Source of the DNA: Algoriphagus chordae
GTDB lineage: Bacteria; Bacteroidota; Bacteroidia; Cytophagales; Cyclobacteriaceae
Length of the DNA: 64,000 bases
Assembly (NCBI RefSeq): GCF_003254055.1
Contig: NZ_QKZT01000002.1
Coordinates: 248,001-312,000, forward strand
Direction: 5' to 3'
Made by a program: the position numbers and the translations under genes. Shown here one piece after another: positions 16,753 through 27,827 of the stretch. How positions within the stretch are numbered: position 1 is the first letter of the stretch; every line of letters starts with the position of its first letter. The notes beneath the pieces were generated by a model that saw nothing but the letters and a program-made list of their open reading frames with translations, had not been told where the DNA came from and did no database searches.

Positions 16753-18048
16753 CTAAAGTGAAATCAAATACCCTTTAAACTCCTCAAAGTCATTCCCCAA
16801 AACCTCCACTTTTTTCTCTCCATCCATAAAAGCAGCTAATCGCTCAGGAAGCTCAAGCTTCAAATTCAATGCTTTTTCTACGGTCTCCCTAAACTTCCCT
16901 GGATGTGCTGTTTCTAGAAACACTCCTTGATAATCAGAATTATCAGCCATAAAATCGGTCAATCCCAAATACCCTACAGCCCCATGGGGGTCCATGGTAT
17001 AGCCAGACTTTTCGACCTTTTGCATCACTTCTACAGTCGCTTCATCAGAGTAGAAATAGCCTTTTACATTTTCTTTTAGCAGCTGCTCATCATTCCCATA
17101 AAGGGCTAGTAAACGAGGGAAATTACTTGGGTTTCCTACATCCATGCTATTACTGATAGTAGCGATCGAAGACATCGAGTTGAAATCAGCTCCATTCAAA
17201 AAGTCAGGAACTACCTTATTTACATTTGTAGCTGCTACAAACTGGTCAATCAGCAAGCCCATTCTTTGCGCTAATATCCCCGCTGCGATATTCCCGAAAT
17301 TTCCAGAAGGAACTGCAAACGCTACTTTTTTATCGTTTTTAGGAAGTCGGGAAAAAGCATAGAAATAGTAAAGACACTGAGGAATCCAACGAGCCACATT
17401 GATAGAATTGGCCGAGGTAAGCAAAAGCTTTTCATTCAGCTCAGCATCCAAAAATGCTTCCTTCACCATTCGCTGGCAATCGTCAAAAACACCATCAACC
17501 TCCAGCGCAGTGATATTTTGTCCCAAGGTTGTGAACTGCTTTTCTTGAAGCTCACTCACTTTCCCCTTCGGGAAAAGAATTATCACTTCCACACCATCCA
17601 CTCCCAAGAAGCCATTCGCCACAGCAGATCCTGTATCACCAGAAGTCGCCACCAAGACTCGCACTTTCCGATCAGATTTCTCCATCAGCATGCTCATCAG
17701 TTTGGAACAGAATCTCGCTCCAAAATCCTTGAATGCCAGCGTAGGCCCATGAAAAAGCTCTAAGCTGTAGACATCTTCCTCCACCTTCACCAGCGGCGCG
17801 TCGAAAGTCAGTGTATGATCAACCAATTCTTTGATCTGTGCTTGACTTAATGCGGTGGAGAACAAGGCTCCAATCACCTCATAGCCGATTTCCTGAAAGC
17901 TCATTTCAGGAAACTTATCCAACAGGTCTTTCGCTAAAACAGGGATTTCCACTGGCATATAAAGCCCTTGATCTGGCGCCAAACCTCTAATGACTGCTTC
18001 GGCAAGATCTACTTGATGATCCGAATTATTTGTACTAAAAAATTTCAT
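16753..18048 (-). CDS. thrC: Threonine synthase
   Basis: A 431-residue PLP enzyme converting O-phosphohomoserine to threonine. The PLP lysine lies in FHGPTLAFKDFGARF near 98-112, and VATSGDTGSAVANGF near 132-146 is the phosphate-binding family signature. The ATG at 18048 is preferred over an in-frame TTG at 18066: it begins MKFFSTN as in the family and falls 4 nt after the thrB stop. It is the last gene of thrABC and its level should follow the leader upstream of thrA. Confidence 0.97.
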   Translation of the reverse strand: MKFFSTNNSDHQVDLAEAVIRGLAPDQGLYMPVEIPVLAKDLLDKFPEMSFQEIGYEVIGALFSTALSQAQIKELVDHTLTFDAPLVKVEEDVYSLELFHGPTLAFKDFGARFCSKLMSMLMEKSDRKVRVLVATSGDTGSAVANGFLGVDGVEVIILFPKGKVSELQEKQFTTLGQNITALEVDGVFDDCQRMVKEAFLDAELNEKLLLTSANSINVARWIPQCLYYFYAFSRLPKNDKKVAFAVPSGNFGNIAAGILAQRMGLLIDQFVAATNVNKVVPDFLNGADFNSMSSIATISNSMDVGNPSNFPRLLALYGNDEQLLKENVKGYFYSDEATVEVMQKVEKSGYTMDPHGAVGYLGLTDFMADNSDYQGVFLETAHPGKFRETVEKALNLKLELPERLAAFMDGEKKVEVLGNDFEEFKGYLISL

Positions 18049-18052
18049 AGGC

Positions 18053-18991
18053 TTATTTTTCTTCAATCAGGTATGCTCCTTTGGTATTTATCTCTGAGAA
18101 ATAAACATCTACACCGAGCCCAATACTGGAATAAACTTCTTTGGCAGCCGAAGCAATGGCTTGTGCTGTATCTTTTCCTTTAGAGAGTGCAAAAAGAGTA
18201 GGTCCCGAACCGGAAATACCCATCCCCAGGGCACCGGCTGTTTTGAGCGCTTCCCTTACTTCGTAGAAGCCCGGAAGCAACACTGCACGATATGGCTCCG
18301 CAATCACATCACGTAAGGATCTAGATATCAATTCAAAATCTCCTTCATAAAGTCCTGCAATCAAACCTGCAACATTTCCTGACTGGATAGTCGAATGCTT
18401 CATCGGTATCTTATCTCTAAGCACCGACCTAGAATCTGCCGTATTCAATTCATAATGTGGATGCAAAAGCGTGCAGTAAAGACCATTTGGAACTGGCAAC
18501 TTGATCACGTCCAGCGGATGATAATCACGGATAAGCACAAAACCACCCAATAAACTTGGGGCTACATTGTCAGCGTGAGCCGCTCCACAGGCGACTTTCT
18601 CCGCTTCGATCGCAAAAGGAAGCAAATTCTTTTTCTCAAATGGCCGACCTAGTAAACAATTGGCAGCTTCCAAAGCAGCAACGGCACTTGCCGCACTTGA
18701 GCCCATGCCTGAACCAAGCGGCAAACCTTTAGTGAGATAAATATCCATCCCCACCTGCTCATCCAATTCATCCAACATGGCCTGAATAGCTACTGCACAG
18801 GTGTTTTTCTTAGCCTCCAAGGGAAGCTTCCCTCCGTCTCCTTCTATCGAAACTACACGTAGTCCCGGCTCATCCTTTCGAATCAACTCAACGGTATCTC
18901 CCATCGCATCGATGGCGAAGCCCAGAATATCAAAACCACAAGAAACATTCGCAACTGTAGCTGGGGCAAAAGCTTTTACAGAACGTATCAT
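18053..18991 (-). CDS. thrB: Homoserine kinase
   Basis: A 312-residue GHMP-family kinase that phosphorylates homoserine. The ATP-binding signature LPLGSGMGSSAASAVAA is near residues 90-106, an N-terminal motif resembling AFAPATVANVSCGFD is at 8-22, and the C-terminal GISGSGPTLFAL near 260 completes the GHMP fold. Its ATG overlaps the thrA stop by 4 bp (ATGA), a hallmark of translational coupling, and thrC follows directly. Confidence 0.97.
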   Translation of the reverse strand: MIRSVKAFAPATVANVSCGFDILGFAIDAMGDTVELIRKDEPGLRVVSIEGDGGKLPLEAKKNTCAVAIQAMLDELDEQVGMDIYLTKGLPLGSGMGSSAASAVAALEAANCLLGRPFEKKNLLPFAIEAEKVACGAAHADNVAPSLLGGFVLIRDYHPLDVIKLPVPNGLYCTLLHPHYELNTADSRSVLRDKIPMKHSTIQSGNVAGLIAGLYEGDFELISRSLRDVIAEPYRAVLLPGFYEVREALKTAGALGMGISGSGPTLFALSKGKDTAQAIASAAKEVYSSIGLGVDVYFSEINTKGAYLIEEK

Positions 18992-21438
18992 TCTCGAGTG
19001 TAATTACCGATTCTAATCACATCTGCAAATACACCCGCAGCAGTTACATCTGCACCAGCACCAGGACCTCTGATGATCATAGGTCTATCACGATATCTAT
19101 CTGTAGTTAATAGAATCATATTATCACTTCCTCCCAATCCACTAAATGGATGCGAAAGTGGTACCGAATTCAATCCAACTTTTGCTTTTCCATTTTCAAG
19201 TGTAGCCATAAAACGGAGTTTCTCTCCCTTGCTTGCAGCTTCTTCTAGCATGTCAATAAATTCCTGATCATGCGTTTTTAGCTTTTCGAAAAATTCAGGA
19301 ACAGAAGCAGCATCCACACAGTCTTCTGGCACCATGCTTTGAATATCAATGGAATCAAACTCCAAATGCTGCTCAGCCTCACGACCCAAAATCAAGATTT
19401 TTCTAGCAACATCCATCCCACTCAAATCATCGCGTGGATCCGGCTCCGTAAACCCAAGTTCCTTAGCCTTCTTGACTACTTCAGAGAATGGTGTTCCGCT
19501 TTCAAGTTCGGAGAAAATATAATTCATAGAACCACTCAAAACCGCTTCGATCCTGATCACTCTATCTCCGGAAAGCATTAAATCCTGCAAGGTATTGATC
19601 ACAGGCAGTCCTGCAGCCACGTTAGTCTCATACAGGAATTTCACACCGCGTTTTTTCGCGATTCTCTTCAAATTCATATACTGCTCCATAGAGCCTGAAT
19701 TCGCCTTCTTATTTGGTGTAACGATAGCGACTTTTGCCTCCAAAATTTTCGAATAAAGCTCTGCTACGTCCTGACTAGCAGTACAATCCACAAATACAGA
19801 ATTGGAGAAATTCATTTCTTCCATGGTTCTGATAAACTTGCTCAAATCAGTTTTCTCATCTGATTCGCTCAAGGCATAAGGATCTTTTAAATCAAAGCCA
19901 TCTTCATGAAATGCCATGAATCTACTATTTGCCATACCATGAATCTGGATATCCAGCGCACTTTCTCCACGCAATTTTTGCTGTTGATTTGCTATCATCT
20001 TAATCAAGGCCTGTCCGATCAAGCCCACTCCCACTAAGAATACGTGGAGCACTTTATTCTCGGAAAGGAAAAATGCCTCGTGGAGCGCATTGAGCGCTTT
20101 TTGCAAATCTGGCTGTGGAATTACGGCCGAAATATTCAGCTCCGAACTCCCTTGAGCAATTGCCCCTACGTTAATGTTATTTCTGCCCAGCGCACGGAAC
20201 ATGCGTCCAGATGCACCTGGGTTTTGCTTCATATTTTCTCCTACTACAGCTACTGTGGCCAAATCATGAAGGAGATAAACTTCTTCCATTTCTCCGGATT
20301 TGATTTCATAGAAAAACTCCTTTTCAATCACCTCTTTCGCCAAGTAGGCTTCCTGAGTTTTGATTGCCAAGCAAATACTGTGTTCAGATGATGCCTGAGA
20401 AATCAACAAAATATTGATTCTTGCCTCGGACAATGCTTTGAAAACACGGCTAGTCCCGACGGTTGAGTCCAGCATGCCAGCTCCCTGCACAGTAACGATA
20501 GATATATTGGAAATAGAACTTATTCCCTTAATCAGCGCGCCTGGGCTTACTTCACCATTGATAAGAGTTCCTGGGTTTGCAGGCTCAAAAGTATTTTTGA
20601 TATAGATCGGGATGCTCTTACGCATCGCTGGCTGCATAGTCGCTGGGAAAATTACTTTGGCACCGAAATGCGAAAGCTCCATCGCCTCATTATAGCTCAA
20701 TTGCGGGATCGTAAATGCGGTATAAACCAATTTAGGATCCGAAGTCAGTACTCCTGACACATCAGTCCAGATTTCTAAGTTTTCCGCATCCAATGCTGCT
20801 GCGAAAATAGCGGCAGTGTAATCCGAGCCAGACCTGCCCAAGGTGGTCGTTTCTCCTTTGGCAGTGGAGGCAATAAATCCGGTGATCACCTTGATACCAT
20901 CATGGGTAGCAAAATAATCCTTGATCGCAGCATTAGTGACTTCAAAATCAACTTTCGCCTGTCCAAATCGATCATTGGTACGGATCACATCTCTAGCGTC
21001 TAGAAACTGGCTCTTCATGCCATTGCCACTCATGGACTCCGCCAAAATAAAGGCAGCTAAGCGCTCACCAAAACTGGCAACGTAATCGAGCGTACGAGCA
21101 GAATTTTCTTTGATCAGATAAATCCCATGGAAAAGATCTTCCAATTCTTTGAAGCGGACTTTCACAAAAGTCATCACCGTGGACTGGCTCTGGACGGCAA
21201 TTAGCTGACGTACAATAGTTAGGTGCTTTTCCTCCAGGCTTTGCAACAGCTCCCTATAGACCTCGTCTCCTTCTCGAGCAAGCTGCGCAATTTTAAGCAA
21301 GGTCTCCGTGACTCCACCAAATGCTGAAAAGACTATTGCGATCTCTTCCTGCTTTAGTTTGTGTTGAATGATAGAAAAAACACGTTGAATGTTTTCAGGG
21401 TTTGCTACCGATGAGCCACCAAACTTGATGATTTTCAT
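18988..21438 (-). CDS. thrA: Bifunctional aspartate kinase/homoserine dehydrogenase I
   Basis: An 816-residue fusion catalysing the first and third steps of the threonine branch. The aspartokinase half begins KFGGSSV at 5-11 and contains TTLGRSGSDYTAA; two ACT repeats occupy roughly 310-455 (VQGAGMLDSTVG and VGENMKQNPGASG). The homoserine dehydrogenase half starts at about 462 with the Rossmann motif VGLIGQAL, followed by TPNKKANSG, YETNVAAGLPVI and the catalytic EPDPRDDLSGMD segment. The length equals E. coli ThrA. The 89-nt space to the leader peptide stop suggests control by attenuation, with ACT-mediated feedback in addition. Confidence 0.97.
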   Translation of the reverse strand: MKIIKFGGSSVANPENIQRVFSIIQHKLKQEEIAIVFSAFGGVTETLLKIAQLAREGDEVYRELLQSLEEKHLTIVRQLIAVQSQSTVMTFVKVRFKELEDLFHGIYLIKENSARTLDYVASFGERLAAFILAESMSGNGMKSQFLDARDVIRTNDRFGQAKVDFEVTNAAIKDYFATHDGIKVITGFIASTAKGETTTLGRSGSDYTAAIFAAALDAENLEIWTDVSGVLTSDPKLVYTAFTIPQLSYNEAMELSHFGAKVIFPATMQPAMRKSIPIYIKNTFEPANPGTLINGEVSPGALIKGISSISNISIVTVQGAGMLDSTVGTSRVFKALSEARINILLISQASSEHSICLAIKTQEAYLAKEVIEKEFFYEIKSGEMEEVYLLHDLATVAVVGENMKQNPGASGRMFRALGRNNINVGAIAQGSSELNISAVIPQPDLQKALNALHEAFFLSENKVLHVFLVGVGLIGQALIKMIANQQQKLRGESALDIQIHGMANSRFMAFHEDGFDLKDPYALSESDEKTDLSKFIRTMEEMNFSNSVFVDCTASQDVAELYSKILEAKVAIVTPNKKANSGSMEQYMNLKRIAKKRGVKFLYETNVAAGLPVINTLQDLMLSGDRVIRIEAVLSGSMNYIFSELESGTPFSEVVKKAKELGFTEPDPRDDLSGMDVARKILILGREAEQHLEFDSIDIQSMVPEDCVDAASVPEFFEKLKTHDQEFIDMLEEAASKGEKLRFMATLENGKAKVGLNSVPLSHPFSGLGGSDNMILLTTDRYRDRPMIIRGPGAGADVTAAGVFADVIRIGNYTRE

Positions 21439-21526
21439 AATTATTACTACTGAAATTATTAACTTGAGAAATTAAAATTGGCCTAAATCTGGCCTGGGGG
21501 CGGGTACTTAATAGATATGGACGGGA
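21439..21526 (-). promoter_or_regulatory. Candidate threonine attenuator region between leader peptide and thrA
   Basis: After the leader peptide stop, a hairpin with stem ACGGG/CCCGT (21521-21525 and 21531-21535) spans the stop codon. ACGGG can instead pair with CCCG at about 21501-21505, and a GGCC/GGCC stem (21480-21483 and 21491-21494) is followed by AATTTTAATTT on the minus strand. Mutually exclusive structures fit attenuation, but the last stem is short and its T-tract interrupted, so the terminator itself is the weak point. Confidence 0.5.
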
Positions 21527-21592
21527 TCAACCCGTAATCGTGGTACCAATCCATGTCGTCATAGAAAAAGTGGTGCAGGCTCTCGCTTCCAT
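21527..21592 (-). CDS. thr operon leader peptide (thrL-like)
   Basis: A 21-codon open frame starting at the ATG at 21592 and ending at TGA 21529-21527, 88 nt before thrA. Seven of 21 residues are threonine and two isoleucine, concentrated in the last ten residues TTWIGTTITG. The length equals that of E. coli ThrL and the composition follows the same logic: ribosome stalling at Thr/Ile codons reports charged tRNA levels. An internal in-frame ATG at 21562 would give an 11-residue version that keeps the Thr/Ile core. Sequence outside the Thr/Ile stretch shows no relation to ThrL. It is too short for standard gene callers. Confidence 0.72.
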   Translation of the reverse strand: MEARACTTFSMTTWIGTTITG

Positions 21593-21804
21593 GGCTGGAA
21601 GTAGATCTAGGTCAGAAGAGATTTTTGCTGCAAATACCATAACTGGACAATTGACAGGACAATCTTACTGCCAAAATCTTTATTCCCCAAACAATCCATT
21701 AGAGTTTTTTGAAAAAAACCGAAACTCTGTTAGAAATAACTCAACAATTCCCTGAAAATCTGAAGATATAGTAGATTCGTTGCTTAAGTAGCTAAAAAGC
21801 AAAA

Positions 21805-21834
21805 TTGAATTTGGAATCAATTTGCCTATTTTAG
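21805..21834 (+). promoter_or_regulatory. Possible promoter of the META-domain gene
   Basis: TTG (21805-21807), 19-bp spacer, TATTTTAG (21827-21834; one mismatch), with the ATG at 21858. Confidence 0.45.
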
Positions 21835-21857
21835 TATAACACTAAACCCTGCACCTT

Positions 21858-22280
21858 ATGAGAGCTTTCAAAAACCTATCCTTTGGTCTTTTCTTCCTCC
21901 TGTTTGCAAGTTGCGGAAGTACCAAGGCCATCAATCCCATGAGCCTGCTAACAGGGAATAGCTGGTTGCTTTCCTCCCTTAAGAGCAATGGCTTAGACAT
22001 GAATCAATTTGTGGGCGGTATCCCTTCACTGAGTTTTTTAGACGGCGGCAAACTCGCTGGCTTCTCTGGATGCAACAATTTCTCAGGGAATTTCTCACTG
22101 GAAGGCACAGCCATCAAGCTTGACCCAGGAGCCATGACCAAGAAGATGTGTCCTGGCTCGGGAGAACAAGATTTCATTTCTGCCCTGTCCGAAGTAGGAG
22201 ATTTGAAAATTGAAAAGGACAAACTCACCTTACTTGATGGAGCTACCGAGTTGATGAGTTTTGTACCAAAGAAAGACTGA
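21858..22280 (+). CDS. META-domain lipoprotein (HslJ-like)
   Basis: A 140-residue envelope lipoprotein: signal peptide with lipobox LFASC (Cys19), then a single META domain. Typical features are NSWLLSSL near residue 34, GKLAGFSGCNNFSGNF near 66-80 and the paired MTKKMCPGSGEQDF segment near 95-108. HslJ-type META proteins are linked to heat shock and novobiocin resistance in E. coli, but their molecular role is unknown. It is divergent from the thr operon and convergent with the GreA-like gene (7 bp between stops). Confidence 0.87.
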   Translation: MRAFKNLSFGLFFLLFASCGSTKAINPMSLLTGNSWLLSSLKSNGLDMNQFVGGIPSLSFLDGGKLAGFSGCNNFSGNFSLEGTAIKLDPGAMTKKMCPGSGEQDFISALSEVGDLKIEKDKLTLLDGATELMSFVPKKD

Positions 22281-27712: not shown

Positions 27713-27794
<82 letters not shown>

Positions 27795-27795
27795 G

Positions 27796-27827
27796 AAAGC
27801 TTCACAGAAATGTGAGGCTTTTTGTTT
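27796..27827 (+). terminator. Intrinsic terminator after tRNA-Ala
   Basis: AAAGCTTCAC and GTGAGGCTTT form a 10-bp stem with one G-U pair and a 6-nt loop, followed by TTTGTTTT. Confidence 0.85.

Follow-up and report, generated by a model that had tools for sequence, protein, structure and literature searches.

Leader-peptide attenuation has long been known and is textbook material in enterobacteria. The question raised by the threonine operon of Algoriphagus chordae (Cyclobacteriaceae) is whether the short Thr-rich reading frame in front of it is such a leader peptide and, if so, how the position of the ribosome on it is turned into control of the operon. The window, that is, the whole stretch of 64,000 nucleotides that was analyzed (contig NZ_QKZT01000002.1, positions 248,001 to 312,000), contains thrA, thrB, and thrC on its minus strand. 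The identities of all three genes are backed by NCBIfam profiles, and thrA (816 aa product) is 94% identical to the thrA of A. resistens.

18988..21438, minus strand: thrA, bifunctional aspartate kinase / homoserine dehydrogenase (NF006959, 1035 bits vs. a cut-off of 726)
18053..18991, minus strand: thrB, homoserine kinase (TIGR00191 and NF002288 above cut-off)
16753..18066, minus strand: thrC, threonine synthase (TIGR00260 above cut-off)

The short Thr/Ile-rich frame before thrABC is real and widely conserved. The thrA protein was searched against 148 genomes of the family, and up to 500 nt 5' of thrA were read. For the 50 genomes with thrA of at least 55% identity, the frame was picked by Thr content alone and not by its ACGGG motif; in 49 of them it ends ...T-G-stop, with ACG-GGN as the last codons. 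The exception (G045, leader L037) has lost the stop in the hairpin and was dropped at the anchoring step. Anchoring on ACGGG gave 67 leaders, reduced to 63 by removal of identical ones and one false match (G100), and 50 non-identical leaders formed the core set for detailed work. Leaders of thrA with <53% identity were kept apart from the core counts. The elements at the 5' side of the region are as follows.

21687..21691, minus strand: −33-like element TTTGG of a putative Bacteroidota-type promoter (pattern TTTG-N-TANNNTTG at 21691-21660)
21660..21667, minus strand: −7-like element TAAGATTG (conserved upstream of the leader frame)
21527..21640, minus strand: leader peptide frame of 37 codons, MVFAAKISSDLDLLPAMEARACTTFSMTTWIGTTITG followed by the stop (ATG-started open frame in 50/50 core leaders)

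Across the core set, the ATG-started open frame is 36–41 codons long, and the two other frames are open across the same 99 nt in only 9 and 13 of the 50 leaders. Threonine accounts for 38% of the last 15 codons vs. 7% of the preceding 20, and Ile, which is made from Thr, is also found near the leader end. When the 300 nt 5' of thrA were dinucleotide-shuffled 3000 times, an ATG frame of at least 15 codons with 5 Thr in the last ten codons never appeared. The last Thr codon is ACG in 63/63 leaders counted, which is partly by construction because ACGGG anchored that list; the earlier Thr codons of the 63 leaders are ACC (183), ACA (88), ACT (81), and ACG (42). When the final ACG is set aside, Thr is commonest at the fifth codon before the stop (55/63 leaders). 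With the frame conserved to this extent, the Thr/Ile leader peptide that the original prediction had placed before thrABC stands. The leader pN/pS values of 0.54 and 0.63 in two Algoriphagus groups, being below 1, would also suit a small protein with its own function rather than a sensor. We consider this very improbable, however, as the first 22 codons have diverged from genus to genus, with differences in length, whereas the Thr-rich end has been preserved under constraint at the nucleotide level. The sensor reading presumes that the leader frame is translated, which we infer from this pattern of conservation.

The frame was originally described as 21 codons long (21592-21527, minus strand; MEARACTTFSMTTWIGTTITG followed by the stop), with seven Thr and two Ile. 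That frame is present, and 88 nt separate the end of its stop from thrA. The ATG at 21592 is codon 17 of the 37-codon frame and sits in a hairpin inside it, and Met is absent at the equivalent place in other Algoriphagus (e.g., A. lacus and A. alkaliphilus). The true leader start is probably the ATG at 21640. Because this conserved start gives 37 codons, the shared length of 21 aa with E. coli ThrL, to which meaning had been attached, is probably accidental.

The pattern TTTG-N-TANNNTTG, which we take to be a Bacteroidota-type promoter, lies just upstream of this start. The bare pattern is not rarer than chance in the window (8 observed vs. 6.29 expected); the promoter call therefore rests on conservation. 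The −7 element TAAGATTG is exact in 30/50 core leaders, with related forms in the remaining 20 (in 5 of which the search matched a site ~11 nt further upstream), and a −33-like element is found 5' of the −7 motif in 44/50 (loose rule: TTTG, TTTCG, or CTTG). In the window and most Algoriphagus, TAAGATTG begins 27 nt before the leader ATG, and the distance from the end of the −7 element to the ATG is 15–22 nt in 45/50 core leaders. Transcription of thrABC would begin a few nt downstream of the −7 element. Because the conserved promoter places this predicted start upstream of the frame, a start downstream of 21592, the event proposed as fatal to the leader, is not what the data point to.

Four RNA elements can be distinguished between the leader start and thrA.

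21575..21631, minus strand: hairpin H0 in the frame, outer arms GCAG 21631-21628 / CTGC 21578-21575, inner arms CTTCC 21601-21597 / GGAAG 21590-21586 (swap test)
21521..21535, minus strand: stop hairpin A:B, ACGGG 21535-21531, TTGAT, CCCGT 21525-21521 (conserved pairs, swap test, folding)
21497..21507, minus strand: segment C, GTACCCGCCCC, at the position of the CATATNNCC box of other genera and a possible alternative partner of ACGGG
21480..21494, minus strand: hairpin D:E, GGCC-AGATTTA-GGCC, followed by AATTTTAATTT and lacking a U-tract (swap test, folding)

The motifs ACGGG, CCCGT, and GTACCCGCCCC, and the GGCC hairpin with the following AATTTTAATTT, are all located where the original prediction had them. 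In the stop hairpin, the ACGGG arm consists of the last Thr codon and the start of the Gly codon, and the stop codon TGA lies in the loop. Its five pairs are present in 49–50 of the 50 core leaders without variation; the loop length varies, and some Algoriphagus relatives lengthen the stem by flanking pairs. The helices were evaluated with an unanchored own-versus-swapped partner test, in which the duplex energies of 16-nt windows were compared between own partners and those of other genomes (37 leaders differing by >25%; 210 window pairs). Six of the 210 pairs had z below −3. D:E is the best-supported leader helix (z −5.49), and A:B reached −3.93 including its flanks (flank pair −3.3). H0 scored −3.94 for the outer and −3.57 for the inner arms in narrower windows, and was not significant in the wider-window test (471 and 965 of 5000 permutations). 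One further pair, at z −3.0, fits no described helix. Mean folding z against shuffles was −1.98 for D:E, −1.44 for A:B, and −1.05 for H0, and the D:E value was below −1 in 83% of 36 leaders. The minimum free energy of 21439-21640 alone was no better than that of shuffles (z −0.46), so that folding of the single sequence proves nothing here. When RNAalifold was run on the full MAFFT alignment, the invariant A:B stem was all that it recovered; H0 and D:E were missed because both shift in position, and the swap map was used instead. Taken together, the swap map, folding, and open frames show that both frame and stems are kept in relatives, the comparison that had been suggested as a check.

The idea of mutually exclusive pairings of ACGGG survives in part: the stem with CCCGT is conserved, whereas the pairing with the downstream C segment (A:C) has a swap z of −2.47 (rank 10 of 210). 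We judged this covariation weak because the z values of the map as a whole have a standard deviation of 1.36 and four pairs lie above +3. The antiterminator-like pairing of ACGGG with downstream CCCC is thus weakly supported, and it would be an alternative to A:B that does not exclude D:E. A pairing of C with D as a competitor of D:E was sought across the leaders and not found consistently.

Whether D:E ends transcription by itself was addressed by comparison with other amino acid operons of the family. A strict terminator rule is satisfied by 3/50 core thr leaders (6–7 pairs) and 3/25 his leaders (6–8 pairs), compared to 8/10 trp leaders from 10 family genomes (11–15 pairs) and 5/5 ilv leaders (11–12 pairs; the five tested are those of 10 loci with a recognized leader). 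Under a looser rule, a stem of at least 8 pairs with a T-run is present in 10/10 ilvD upstream regions. The regions 5' of trpE (L166-L175, with WWW leaders) and 5' of ilvD (L148, L153, L155, L156, and L157, with Ile/Leu/Val runs) look like textbook attenuators, most of them with strong U-tract terminators. Behind D:E, a U-tract is missing in nearly all relatives, and the mean T count in the following 8 nt (3.16) is near the background of 2.61. D:E is a conserved element and not a canonical intrinsic terminator; the comparison shows a thr control region without a terminator like those predicted before trp and ilv. Of the original proposal, the conservation of the GGCC hairpin held and its role as the terminator of a classical attenuator did not, and the accompanying warning of a weak terminator and a possibly different mechanism was well placed. 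Elsewhere in the window, at 27720-27822, a tRNA-Ala gene (GGC anticodon) is followed directly by a 12-pair terminator-like hairpin, a local example of a canonical terminator.

These data bear directly on the possibility of a classical attenuator whose intrinsic terminator is unusually weak, in which D:E, or A:B with a T-rich stretch behind it, would cause RNA polymerase to dissociate under conditions of ample Thr. In its favor, no other hairpin is as well supported as D:E, T-runs follow D:E in some relatives (e.g., L004, GCCT-TTTTTATC), and a loose rule (5 T in 8) passes 18/50 thr leaders, 11 of them at the stop hairpin, and 13/25 his leaders, all at the stop hairpin, compared to 5–7% of shuffles. 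Nearly all of these stems are shorter than the ilvD ones, however. The near-background T count and the few strict matches also speak against a weak terminator, and a scan of 21300-21900 found 0 terminators while the trp (L167) and ilv (L156) leaders of the same genome have 13- and 11-pair stems with U-runs. We regard this explanation as unlikely.

More than one kind of thr control occurs in the family, as 40 more distant family loci indicate by reading. Three (G009, G090, and G030) have Thr/Ile leaders with classical terminators, and in five (G036, G055, G075, G076, and G142) a hairpin is located at the leader stop or immediately before it, without a strong terminator; in the remaining loci of these 40, no clear leader was seen. 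Thr-rich leaders with the stop in a GC-rich hairpin were also noted by eye in other families of the order (L118 of G169, L133 of G176, and L134 of G191), for example CATGCCC-TAA-GGGGCATG and CCCGG-TAA-CCGGG, and L133 has a terminator-like hairpin behind the stop hairpin.

The missing canonical terminator could also be accommodated by translational attenuation, in which the leader ribosome alters access to the thrA start and not transcription, and D:E ends only 25–43 nt before thrA in leaders without an insert. The thrA start region is nevertheless predicted to be neither unusually closed nor unusually open, with a mean unpaired value of 0.55 at −20..+10 vs. 0.50 for the whole leader (n = 45), and this account appears improbable to us. 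The insert just mentioned is an extra stretch of ~80–120 nt, starting ATGAARTC, between leader and thrA in 5 of 15 named Algoriphagus (L094:708-800, L095, L096, L101, and L104). It is an interspersed repeat of the genus, with matches in 41/60 genomes and up to 169 first-look candidates per genome, including copies in the window's genome (e.g., G000:C6:240999-241086 and G000:C1:176293-176381), and is sometimes arranged in tandem with a period of ~92. In 25 of 28 copies read, ATGAAA follows within one base, sometimes as the next tandem copy and in a few cases as a gene start (e.g., of thrA or a lipoprotein). It may be a mobile repeat with ATGAAA as its insertion site.

Returning to control of transcription by the leader ribosome, we compared the region with known systems. 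As in the E. coli thr leader (thrL; Rfam RF00506), a Thr/Ile-rich leader peptide directly precedes thrA and a GC-rich segment overlaps the leader stop (L299). In contrast, the strong E. coli terminator (GCCCGCACC...GTGCGGGC plus T-run in L299) has no counterpart of its kind here, and ThrL has 21 aa compared to ~37 aa here, with sequences that are unrelated apart from composition. RF00506 had no match at the gathering threshold in the window, and a search of 21300-21900 up to E 10 gave five matches, none of them to RF00506. Rfam likewise returned no Thr leader match for three relatives (L009, L014, and L030), and for the window plus 11 loci from relatives and the own genome it returned no leader family and one match, a small SRP RNA. 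Because the terminator and Rfam tests failed, we did not assign the thr leader to the E. coli-type thr attenuator. The general hallmark of ribosome-mediated attenuation, a conserved frame of control codons with overlapping RNA structure, is present, with translation deduced from conservation. The region thus looks like a leader-peptide attenuator, but not like the thr attenuator of E. coli.

A related layout was found before the histidine operon. We located hisG in 40 family genomes, and 25 of the 40 leaders are thr-like in having the stop codon in a hairpin loop: they end ...HHSS-stop within TTCCTCC-TRA-GGAGGAA or a close form. A CATATNGCCC-like box follows ~18 nt after the stop in 22 of these 25, with CGCCC at +23/+24; its variants are CATATCGCCC (17), TATATCGCCC (3), ATTTCGCCC (1), and CATACCGCCC (1). 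The three leaders without the box are all from Algoriphagus, including the window's genome. Among the 15 other his loci, 5 have classical terminators. In the thr leaders, the CATATNNCC box is present at +18 to +22 from the stop in 31/34 non-Algoriphagus core leaders and 0/16 of Algoriphagus (window included), and in 6 of 13 leaders with thrA of 55–59% identity it is found at 17–18 nt. In both thr and his leaders, the Y-G or N-G step of the box follows the stop hairpin at a distance of 14–17 nt, and in the many thr leaders with CATATAGCCC this G is preceded by A. In two leaders from another family of the order (G151 and G199), the parts are, by eye, arranged in the same order: the stop lies in a CCC/GGG hairpin, and CATAT comes ~18 nt later. 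In the his swap map (20 leaders), A:B hardly varies and gave no strong helix, and the second hairpin was modest (z −2.3 to −2.7). Many genera have a second conserved block, CTAAACGTATATTGCAT or close to it, ~30 nt before hisG (L137-L140 and L143), which may be an internal promoter.

As a genome-wide motif, CATATNGCCC is not diagnostic: it had 111 matches in 3 genomes, with 1 leader among 30 loci read. When a suitably spaced stop codon was also required, there were 56 matches in 7 genomes vs. 9 for a control pattern. Thirty of these 56 loci were read; six have GC-rich stop hairpins of 6–8 pairs, all of them thr or his leaders, and no third operon with the box layout was found among the 30. A 9-pair match in L285 has a wide loop and was judged to be chance. 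No convincing Phe-rich leader was found before the prephenate dehydratase gene in 10 genomes.

The position of the box recalls the E. coli his leader. The hisL-type pause consensus has a hairpin ~11 nt upstream of a Y-1 G+1 step, with G-10. In hisL, the stop codon is likewise in a hairpin loop (CCTGA...TCAGG), and a T-G step, which we take to be the known pause site, lies at +22/+23 from the stop, similar to the step before G here (mostly +23 to +25). The distance from hairpin to step differs (11 nt in hisL vs. 14–17 nt here), and hisL is followed by a strong terminator (L298) whereas the Cyclobacteriaceae thr and his leaders are mostly without one. Because its place relative to the stop is similar to hisL but the hairpin is 14–17 nt away and not 11, the box can be called a possible pause element only. 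The hisL pause needs both the hairpin and the DNA consensus (PMC9291695).

On this basis, we somewhat favor reading 21691-21439 (minus strand) as the thrABC control region, composed of promoter, leader peptide, and hairpins, with a Thr-sensing leader peptide and perhaps a hisL-like pause. When Thr-tRNA is scarce, a ribosome would stall on the leader Thr codons and thrABC expression would rise; that Thr is sensed by a stalled leader ribosome is very probable, going by the conserved codons. A:B and the box ~18 nt behind the stop might produce a hisL-like pause in which the ribosome catches up with RNA polymerase, a step that is quite possible by analogy but falls short of being probable. A ribosome that reaches the stop would open A:B and expose the C-rich spacer, and a factor such as Rho could then end transcription, which is a guess that we regard as rather doubtful. 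Since Thr is so often the fifth codon before the stop, a ribosome stalled there, at the textbook footprint length, would cover ACG and leave GGGGTAAT free for the C segment, and transcription would continue. For the Rho step, the spacer C/G ratio of 2.10 in thr leaders (C>G in 50/50) fits, and his leaders (1.20) are without such a fit; values are 1.33 for trp, 1.09 for ilv, and 1.19 for 20 intergenic stretches of the window. C-richness is weak evidence for Rho because the his spacer is not C-enriched and the trp spacer reaches 1.33 despite its terminators. A known Rho-dependent leader attenuator is E. coli tnaC, which senses free tryptophan via its nascent peptide. It shares with the thr leader the lack of an intrinsic terminator and an untranslated spacer after the leader stop; it differs in the sensing of free tryptophan by the nascent peptide, and a role of Rho in the thr leader is only putative.

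Attenuators were reportedly found in some Bacteroidetes/Chlorobi by Vitreschak and co-workers (2004), so part of the thr/his picture may already be known. In the same phylum, strong clues for leader-peptide attenuation of amino acid operons have been stated for Flavobacterium psychrophilum (PMC9723704); these attenuators resemble the present ones in having leader peptides before amino acid operons, but neither a threonine leader nor a structure is named in the sections seen. A study of B. thetaiotaomicron also mentions small frames resembling leader peptides (PMC7366714). In the accessible parts of the literature found, including PMC9723704, PMC7366714, PMC8632094, PMC3766115, and PMC9291695, no Cytophagales thr leader or thr/his layout is described. 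Going by these sources, leader-peptide control of amino acid operons is little documented in Bacteroidota. The new part is the terminator-poor thr/his layout; leader-peptide sensing itself is old.

We tentatively suggest, without calling it probable, that the thr and his operons of Cyclobacteriaceae share a distinct, terminator-independent form of leader-peptide control, in which the stop hairpin and a CATATNGCCC box set at a constant spacing from the stop would retain RNA polymerase, or bind a factor instead, and the position of the ribosome would decide read-through, beside textbook trp and ilv attenuators in the same cells. The family thus offers a natural experiment, since strong intrinsic terminators follow the trp and ilv leaders of genomes whose thr and his leaders share another element, placed at a constant distance from the stop. 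The layout also predicts leader peptides and transcription starts for ~50 genomes. If true, it would show a terminator-free readout of ribosome stalling, and would tell if a hisL-type pause can decide the outcome.
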